From: a virus
DNA: 22,998 nucleotides
Virus record (IMG/VR): IMGVR_UViG_3300031586_000023
Coordinates: 1-22,998 of that record
Reading direction: 5' to 3' (one strand)
Part shown: positions 8,461 to 15,621 of the stretch, in pieces
Layout of the letters: every line of letters begins with the position of its first letter
Position numbering within the stretch: the first letter of the stretch is position 1
Notes under the pieces: model-generated
Told to the model about the DNA's origin: nothing
The model's input: only the letters and a program-made list of their open reading frames with translations
Databases searched by the model: none
Program-made: the position numbers and the translations under genes

Positions 8461-8482
8461 GGATTTTGAAAGAGATTATTGG

Positions 8483-8510
8483 CCACAGAGGACAGAGAGA
8501 GTATAGAGAA
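8483..8510 (+). repeat. 7-base-period array (NNACAGA-type)
   Basis: Four consecutive heptads: CCACAGA, GGACAGA, GAGAGTA, TAGAGAA, with a fifth weak heptad filling the space exactly to the GTG at 8518. It is one of at least ten intergenic arrays in this window with the same period but different unit sequence. Confidence 0.55.
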
Positions 8511-8515
8511 AATTA

Positions 8516-9547
8516 GTGTGGGTAATACCAAAGAATTTAGGTGTCTCAGCCTGTGTACGGGATACGCTGGAATCGAGCTGGGGCTTAAACGAGCTATCCC
8601 TGCTCTGCGAACGATCGCTTACGTGGAGATCGAAGCCTTCGCCTGCGCGAACCTGGTTGCGAAGATTGAAGCGAATCTCTTGGATGCAGCACCTGTCTGG
8701 ACGGATATTAAGACCTTCCCTGCACGATATTTTCGCAATCGGGTACACATCATCACTGCCGGTTATCCCTGCCAGCCGTTCAGTTGTGCGGGAAAACGAA
8801 AAGGAACGGACGACCCTCGATACCTTTGGCCGCATATTGAGCGAATCATCAAAACAATTAAGCCTATTTGGTTCTTCGGGGAAAATGTCATGGGACATAT
8901 TAAATACGGCTTCGCTGATGTTTATCGAAGCTTACGAAAAATGGGTTATTCGGTTGAGGCGGGATTATTTAGCGCGGCAGAGTGCGGTGCGCCCCATCTT
9001 AGACGCAGATTATTCTTTCTGGCCCACAATACAAATTGCAGATTCAAAACAATGTCGATGCAACAAGAGGGGCAATCCGCATCTGGGGACAGCAGTTCAA
9101 AACTGGCCGACACCGAAAATACCGACAGGCGGAGCAGAGAAAAGGCAGAGCAGAGCGAAACGAGGAAGCGGCGGAGAAGATTTGGCAGCGGCGATACAGA
9201 ATGCTATTGGCCTGCCGCATTTGGACAGCAACAATATGAGTGGGAAGAGCCCAGGGTTATGGATGACACCCGAGGCAAAAAACGAGCAAGGTTATCAAAT
9301 AGCCAGAGGCAAAAAATATCCAAGACTGGGAACACAGGCGCGATTTGCAACACCCACTTGCCCGGGGAAAAGAGGAACAGCGGGCGGACAAAAAAGAAAC
9401 TTGTTGAAAGATCTAAAATGCCGAACCCGCCAATTAAACCCCGATTGGGTAGAGCAACTAATGGGACTCCCTGTAGGATGGACAGATTGCAATTACTCGG
9501 TAACGGTGTCGTGCCGCAGCAGGCGGAAAAGGCGTTCAGGGAATTGA
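8516..9547 (+). other. second open frame overlapping the methyltransferase, protein-like from 9017 to 9487
   Basis: In the +1 frame relative to the methyltransferase the DNA is open for 343 codons. Its second half (9017-9487) is not random: it has WPT, WPTP, WMTP and FATP motifs at intervals, then LNPDWVEQLMGLPVGWTD, a pattern I know from C-termini of many phage cytosine methyltransferases. The same DNA gives LADT-type motifs in the main frame, since CTGGCCGACACC reads L-A-D-T or, shifted by one, W-P-T-P (9103-9115). No ribosome site specific to this frame is evident. Independent expression, programmed frameshifting or a record of past frame switching are all possible. Confidence 0.4.
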
Positions 9548-9564
9548 TGAGGCTGTTTGAATGA
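8518..9564 (+). CDS. C5 DNA cytosine methyltransferase
   Basis: A 348-residue enzyme that would transfer a methyl group from S-adenosylmethionine to carbon 5 of cytosine. Motif I LSLCTGYAGIELGL (10-23) binds the cofactor; motif IV GYPCQPFS holds catalytic C85; motif VI is GENV (121-124); motif VIII is APHLRRRLFFLA (158-169); motif X is LGNGVVPQQA near the end (327-336). The segment between VIII and X (170-325) is hydrophilic and arginine-rich with LADT at 196-199 and WPAAFG...YEWEEPR, as in phage enzymes of this type. No ATG is available; GTG 8518 is preferred since a heptamer array precedes it, while TTG 8479 would add 13 residues. Likely protects phage DNA from restriction. A second frame is open across the whole gene. 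Confidence 0.9.
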   Translation: MGNTKEFRCLSLCTGYAGIELGLKRAIPALRTIAYVEIEAFACANLVAKIEANLLDAAPVWTDIKTFPARYFRNRVHIITAGYPCQPFSCAGKRKGTDDPRYLWPHIERIIKTIKPIWFFGENVMGHIKYGFADVYRSLRKMGYSVEAGLFSAAECGAPHLRRRLFFLAHNTNCRFKTMSMQQEGQSASGDSSSKLADTENTDRRSREKAEQSETRKRRRRFGSGDTECYWPAAFGQQQYEWEEPRVMDDTRGKKRARLSNSQRQKISKTGNTGAICNTHLPGEKRNSGRTKKKLVERSKMPNPPIKPRLGRATNGTPCRMDRLQLLGNGVVPQQAEKAFRELMRLFE

Positions 9565-9570
9565 AAAGTA

Positions 9571-9617
9571 TTCGATATTCGATGTTCGATGTTCGATACT
9601 TGATGTTCGATATTCGA
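9571..9617 (+). repeat. TTCGATR heptamer array, locus 1
   Basis: Nearly seven consecutive heptads of TTCGATR with one degenerate copy (CTTGATG) begin seven bases after the methyltransferase stop. A 33-codon frame runs through it from an ATG at 9561, but its peptide is simply the translated repeat and I do not treat it as a gene. The same unit recurs at 20772-20810 and 22542-22583. Confidence 0.8.
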
Positions 9618-15075: not shown

Positions 15076-15621
15076 ATGGAAAGCACAAACAATACAGAAA
15101 TCGAACTTAGAAATCAGGGAATAATAAATATCTGCGGAAAAATTTCAGATGATTCAATGCAAAAAGTCATACAGGAATTTGTATATATCAATTCAATCAT
15201 TGAACCGGACTTCAAGGCTATCCAGATAATCCTCAATTCACCTGGTGGAACTATACCTGCAGGATTTATGCTGACTGATTTTATCGAATTTTCAAAATTG
15301 GCGGTCTATATCACGGGACTCGGTATATGTGCTTCTATGGGGATACTTATTCTTTGTTCCGGAGCCAAAGGTCACAGAATCATTACAAAAAATACCGCAT
15401 TATTAAGTCACCAATACTCCTGGGAGAATGCTGGCAAATATCACGAATTAGTTGCTGATAGAAAAGAGCAGGACTTGGTACAACGGCGAATGATAAAACA
15501 TTATCTGAAACATACAAAACTAAACGAACGGCAAGTAAGAGAAATTTTATTGTCAGCAAAGGATGTTTGGTTGACGCATAGAGAAGCCAAAAAATACGGA
15601 CTTATCGATAAAGTTATTTAA
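15076..15621 (+). CDS. ClpP-like serine protease
   Basis: A 181-residue ClpP-fold peptidase. S87 in GICASMGILILCSGAKGHR is the nucleophile, H112 in LLSHQYSW sits 25 residues later as in ClpP, and D163 in SAKDVWLTHREAKKYGLIDKV completes the triad. NSPGG (54-58) would form the oxyanion hairpin. In some phages such a protein is the prohead protease, but here a separate protease domain is fused to the capsid protein, so this may serve another purpose, such as degrading host proteins. The gene is A/T-richer than its neighbours, lies between terminase and connector genes, and is followed by a terminator, suggesting an inserted cassette. AAGGAG precedes the ATG by about nine bases. Confidence 0.85.
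   Translation: MESTNNTEIELRNQGIINICGKISDDSMQKVIQEFVYINSIIEPDFKAIQIILNSPGGTIPAGFMLTDFIEFSKLAVYITGLGICASMGILILCSGAKGHRIITKNTALLSHQYSWENAGKYHELVADRKEQDLVQRRMIKHYLKHTKLNERQVREILLSAKDVWLTHREAKKYGLIDKVI

Follow-up and report, generated by a model that had tools for sequence, protein, structure and literature searches.

In silico analysis of the temperate phage contig IMGVR_UViG_3300031586_000023 (IMG/VR virus record; the whole stretch of 22,998 nucleotides is referred to as the window) revealed a C5-cytosine methyltransferase gene which, to judge from its sequence, almost certainly encodes two proteins over nearly its whole length. The frame-0 methyltransferase open reading frame (ORF) is designated alpha, and the +1-frame ORF on the same DNA is designated beta. 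The two products of the locus are probably the subunits of one C5-cytosine methyltransferase, which follows the plan of M.EcoHK31I but has its subunits almost fully coextensive on the DNA.

Reading frames and family matches

The methyltransferase ORF extends from 8479 to 9564, and a +1 ORF open for 343 codons (8516-9547, GTG start, 343 aa) is nested inside it, as indicated by the first-pass annotation of this DNA. Alpha matches Pfam family PF00145 (1.5e-35; 123.6 bits versus a curated cut-off of 22) and phrog_363 (3e-59). Together with this score, motifs I, IV (PCQ), VI (ENV), VIII and X place it among the C5-cytosine methyltransferases; its own chain contains neither motif IX, which was found in the +1 frame, nor a modelled small recognition domain. 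A family search with each frame separately had been proposed as a check, and beta did find a match, phrog_1008 “DNA methyltransferase” (2.9e-22), a family that also recognises the betas of far relatives from an Acinetobacter phage, Alphaproteobacteria, Bacillota and Streptomyces. A Pfam search of the +1 protein gave no match. The C-terminus of beta aligns with motifs IX-X of single-chain actinobacterial enzymes (profile match, E 1.2e-10). The motifs listed earlier for both frames are present, namely WPTP, WMTP, FATP and LNPDWVEQLMGLPVGWTD in the +1 frame and, over the PTP region, LADT, WPAAFGQQQYEWEEPR and DDTRG in the gene frame; CTGGCCGACACC is indeed read as LADT or WPTP depending on the frame.

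Distribution of the two-frame arrangement

Scanning with beta retrieved 110 viral stretches, and with alpha 17. In practically all retained relatives the +1 frame is uninterrupted over nearly the full length of alpha and mostly comprises 230-480 codons; open stretches in the +2 frame comprise about 10-110. Beta is conserved over its full length and uninterrupted in about 100 viral loci, and the motif LNPxWVExLMG always lies in the +1 frame relative to the alpha catalytic block. In order to avoid the choice of loci by their +1 frame, a second search of bacterial and archaeal genomes and viral contigs was performed with the alpha alignment only. All 160 loci selected in this way carry a +1 ORF of at least 168 codons, and a regular expression for motif IX matched the +1 frame in 126 of them and frame 0 in 3, and missed 31. 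Among loci found via the beta motif, alpha overlaps in frame 0 in 77 of 77. The same layout occurs in more than 200 contigs of independent assemblies, and the hosts named in record titles include Alphaproteobacteria, Verrucomicrobia, Bacillota, Bacteroidota, Actinomycetota and Planctomycetes. The two-frame arrangement is found in phages and prophages of many bacterial phyla.

Alpha of L082/L083 (from 3001) is broken within the catalytic half and open only from 3355, with beta still open; the gene may have decayed, or the sequence may contain an error. On a Sphingomonas paeninsulae plasmid (L107, 1395-2504) beta alone is annotated (WP_239025738.1, “hypothetical protein”), and the methyltransferase frame is without annotation in the table shown.

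Selection on both frames

The coding status of the +1 frame was assessed with synonymous shuffles preserving the alpha protein and codon usage in 70 non-redundant genes. With alpha fixed, 156 stops were observed in the +1 frame versus 561±15 in the shuffles, and in the first 160 codons 22 versus 311±13; the +2 frame, serving as the control over these 160 codons, showed little change (545 versus 575±19). For the window gene alone, no shuffle among 1000 reached so low a number of +1 stops or so great a +1 ORF length. The number of +1 stops was 83 versus 328±12 in the alpha-selected viral set and 175 versus 324±11 in the alpha-selected genome set, and neighbouring ORFs, used as a control, were nearly normal (1228 versus 1280±18). 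When beta was fixed instead and loci with an early alpha end were left out, the second half of alpha had no stops, with 347±14 expected.

The conservation of third codon positions in alpha is 0.50 in the motif X tail, which is mostly alpha only in the relatives, 0.68 in the N-terminal half and 0.96 in the motif IX segment, where the first positions are conserved at only 0.64. Such a combination of high third-position and low first-position conservation is the signature of +1 reading. Four-fold sites at conserved alpha codons also clearly exceed what composition predicts, including where protein identity is down to 40-59%. A per-site test of the N-terminal half of beta gave 20 strongly over-conserved positions versus 13 in the +2 control and is not decisive alone; because the control is also raised, the excess is weaker than it first seemed, and reliance is therefore placed on the stop counts and third-position statistics.

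Both frames are under selection. The first-pass annotation had offered genuine dual coding as one of two explanations and had asked for a codon-level test; the family match of the +1 frame, its uninterrupted state in relatives and the constraint on both frames support that explanation. The dual-coding region had been placed at 9017-9487, which is real but too narrow, since both frames are coding from the start codons (8516/8518) through the catalytic half and on to at least 9487. That annotation had recognised neither this dual coding of the catalytic half nor the overlapping start codons described below.

Start codons and translation signals

The start codons of the two frames overlap. The pair, examined in 84 loci, is ATGTG in 72, GTGTG in 8, as in the window, and TTGTG in 1; in a second, partly overlapping set it was present in 71 of 77. 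A conserved M-W (ATG TGG) opens beta, and the GTG of alpha is formed from the same bases two nucleotides later. In several loci (e.g. L063, L037) no other common alpha start exists between the upstream stop and motif I. Compared with in-gene controls, the upstream regions are enriched in Shine-Dalgarno-like sequence (p 6.5e-5), although many of the sites are weak. Both proteins would be translated from the overlapping starts.

The Bacillota-type relatives have an internal beta start, about 60 codons into alpha and in many cases behind a strong Shine-Dalgarno site; one example, acAAAGGAGagtttttATG, sits in the TKESF codons of alpha. Similarly, in Paenibacillus phage Bloom the internal beta start is preceded by GGGAGGTG, a strong ribosome-binding site inside alpha. 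These internal starts provide the best sequence evidence for what may be independent initiation of beta. The ribosome-binding site and ATG of internal betas are encoded in alpha codons in L157, L158, L162, L178, L180, L182 and L104, and TKESF holds these signals in L104, L157, L158 and L162. Since beta signals lie within alpha codons, a conserved alpha motif may therefore reflect translation signals, not protein function.

Division of motifs between the frames

In every relative read, motifs I-VIII are located in frame 0 and the PTP repeats in the +1 frame. The remaining motifs are distributed as follows; (i) in the window type, alpha has I-VIII and X, and beta the PTP repeats and IX; (ii) in the split type (L013, L014, L026, L034, L037, L045, L063, L158, L187), alpha has I-VIII, and beta the PTP repeats, IX and X; (iii) in the Streptomyces/Gordonia type (L102, L156, L168, L169, L173), alpha has I-VIII, IX and X, and beta the PTP repeats only. 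Motifs IX and X thus change ORF among lineages and each pair retains the full motif set. Because I-VIII are always in frame 0 and the PTP repeats always in +1, each alpha/beta pair sums to one enzyme. The other explanation in the first-pass annotation, a pair of frameshifts exchanging the target-recognition region in evolution, holds only insofar as IX and X have moved between frames in some lineages; no evidence of such an exchange was obtained, because the PTP repeats are in +1 in every case read.

A beta contains 1-6 PTP motifs with a median spacing of 45 residues. Multispecific phage methyltransferases have tandem recognition modules, and the PTP repeats invite comparison with these. Within the otherwise disordered loop of alpha, the motif WPARPGxxQYEWEEPR is kept, and in L026, L037 and L063 alpha ends directly after it; this motif may be a contact with beta.

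Structure models

The AlphaFold2 (AF2) model of alpha shows a high-confidence large domain (residues ~5-172) and the C-terminal motif X helix. Between residues 171 and 323 it is without secondary structure, with a predicted local distance difference test score (pLDDT) mostly below 50. In a Foldseek search alpha matched M.HaeIII and M.HhaI over only ~170-187 columns, about half their length.

The proposed enzyme and its alternatives

It is proposed that ribosomes initiate at the two overlapping codons of a single mRNA, so that alpha and beta would both be produced. Alpha would constitute the catalytic large domain, with motifs I-VIII and the C-terminal motif X linked by a disordered loop, and beta the target-recognition small domain, in which the PTP repeats, as putative recognition modules, would bind DNA and be followed by motif IX. 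The two chains presumably associate, forming one active enzyme. As in the M.EcoHK31I plan, the large chain has I-VIII and X and the second chain has motif IX. A broader proposal, which is put at slightly less than an even chance, is that of a widespread phage and prophage class that would be fully dual-coded, with one ribosome-binding site, ATGTG starts and two coextensive proteins of ~350 residues, the second being a modular PTP-repeat recognition subunit that sets the methylated sites.

Several observations weigh against the two-subunit proposal. The Shine-Dalgarno sequence is often weak in the clade of the window, the window included. The AF2 model of beta is poor (pLDDT 55; 70-85 for the helices of the N-terminal half, ~88 for motif IX and below 50 for the PTP region), and a fold search with this weak model gave no match. 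The N-terminal half of beta, helical in the model, fits no known methyltransferase part and no known small-domain role. Beta might also be something other than the small domain, because alpha of the Streptomyces/Gordonia type already has I-X and its beta only the PTP repeats. The last two points, and the location of the catalytic motifs exclusively in alpha, would suit a beta that is real but is not a subunit, its phage function being independent of the complete methyltransferase on which it was overprinted. This is considered unlikely, as in most lineages motif IX is present in beta and absent from alpha, the small-domain region of alpha is disordered in the model, the relocation of IX and X between alpha and beta leaves the motif set of the pair complete, and a frame-0 alpha accompanies beta in all 77 beta-motif loci.

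Programmed +1 ribosomal frameshifting after motif VIII could alternatively fuse the catalytic half of alpha to the recognition region and motif IX of beta. Beta is exactly +1 of alpha, and in the split loci L014, L158 and L187 a single +1 shift would yield I-VIII, PTP, IX and X in order. The window type, however, needs a second shift back for motif X, beta has a conserved start codon of its own and is already open and conserved before any such site is reached, and internal betas have strong ribosome-binding sites. The alpha stops of split loci vary (after motif VIII or after EEPR), and no common site of frame change was found there, with no systematic slippery-site scan made. Frameshifting is accordingly judged improbable. 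A still lower, practically negligible probability is assigned to a reading in which base composition or codon usage has produced the +1 ORF spuriously, or two indels have damaged a single-frame gene. Chance does yield long alternative ORFs, especially in GC-rich genes, but the genes in the codon-conservation test have 44-57% guanine plus cytosine, and shuffles that retain the protein and its codon usage miss the observed values by more than 20 standard deviations with neighbouring genes nearly normal, which rules out base composition; an assembly or pseudogene artefact with two indels was rejected because the layout recurs in the more than 200 independently assembled contigs.

Features of the locus

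Table 1. Coordinates of the dual-coding locus in the window (A4, alignment of alpha)
Feature	Position	Strand	Remarks
Overlapping starts GTGTG	8516..8520	+	beta GTG 8516, alpha GTG 8518; ATGTG in most relatives
Alpha	8518..9564	+	C5-cytosine methyltransferase frame; GTG start overlapping beta start, conserved in relatives
Alternative alpha start TTG	8479	+	upstream of GTG 8518
Beta	8516..9547	+	+1-frame ORF, 343 aa, with PTP repeats and motif IX
Alpha motif I region LSLCTGYAGI	8545..8574	+	conserved in A4
Alpha motif IV PCQPFS, catalytic Cys	8767..8784	+	P84, C85, Q86 invariant in A4
Alpha motif VI ENV	8881..8889	+	invariant in A4
Alpha motif VIII GAPHLRRR	8986..9009	+	H160, R162, R164 invariant in A4
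Alpha segment predicted disordered, in small-domain position	9040..9498	+	opposite beta PTP repeats and motif IX (AF2)
Alpha motif WPAAFGQQQYEWEEPR	9208..9255	+	A4 consensus WPARPGExQYEWEEPR
Alpha motif X GNGVVP	9499..9516	+	G328, N329, G330 invariant in A4; following helix pLDDT 94-95
Beta PTP-type repeats	9020..9355	+	WPTI 9020, WPTP 9104, WMTP 9260, FATP 9344
Beta motif IX LNPDWVEQLMGLPVGWTD	9434..9487	+	same DNA in alpha frame reads RLGRATNGTPCRMDRL

A heptamer (consensus TATTCGA) is repeated about seven times at 9569-9617, immediately after the stop codon of the methyltransferase gene. Elsewhere the temperate phage contig encodes an integrase, a ParB-like protein, terminase gpA, a portal protein and a capsid protein. 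A ClpP-like protease gene (15076-15621) is located between the terminase and portal genes.

Comparison with known systems

In the DNA viruses of bacteria, two full-length proteins seldom overlap on the same strand. The overlap described here is ~1 kb long, conserved across many lineages, provided with overlapping starts and strongly supported statistically. It would explain the inconsistent annotation of such loci, where one frame, the other, or both are named as “DNA methyltransferase” or “hypothetical protein”. It also enables a direct test of the dependence of a methyltransferase on a protein from the other frame of its own gene, and the PTP repeats are candidate modular DNA-recognition units. 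No description of the general pattern of such overlaps was found in the open-licence papers searched.

A second protein out of frame inside a phage methylase gene is also known from the ShiLan element, in which an HNH endonuclease is hidden (PMC11855218). In contrast to that inserted homing endonuclease, the window beta is coextensive with alpha, has no HNH match and carries methyltransferase motif IX; a ShiLan-like HNH or other insertion was rejected, as no such domain was matched in beta by Pfam or PHROG. Paenibacillus phage Bloom 56/57 and Mycobacterium phage Catdawg gp6/gp5 likewise have a methylase annotation on each of two ORFs that lie in different frames. However, these ORFs are not coextensive, and their overlap is partial, with 209 bp in Catdawg and the C-terminal two thirds in Bloom.

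In M.EcoHK31I the small gene lies inside the large one in another frame, with a small ORF of ~176 codons. This two-polypeptide C5-cytosine methyltransferase of an E. coli restriction-modification system has motifs I-VIII and X in the large chain, where the recognition domain is also predicted, and IX in the smaller chain (PMC3404938). The window pair has the same motif split. By description, it is set apart in that beta spans almost all of alpha, shares the start site, carries the PTP repeats and is found in a phage. M.AquI, another two-subunit enzyme, has I-VIII in the large subunit and the distal variable region, IX and X in the small one (PMC3404938), the same division as in the split relatives L014, L026 and L187; in the window type, by contrast, X stays in alpha and nearly all of the DNA is shared by the two genes. 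The arrangement in the window is far more extreme and widespread than the known two-polypeptide methyltransferases, and it would make M.EcoHK31I one case of a large class, not an oddity.
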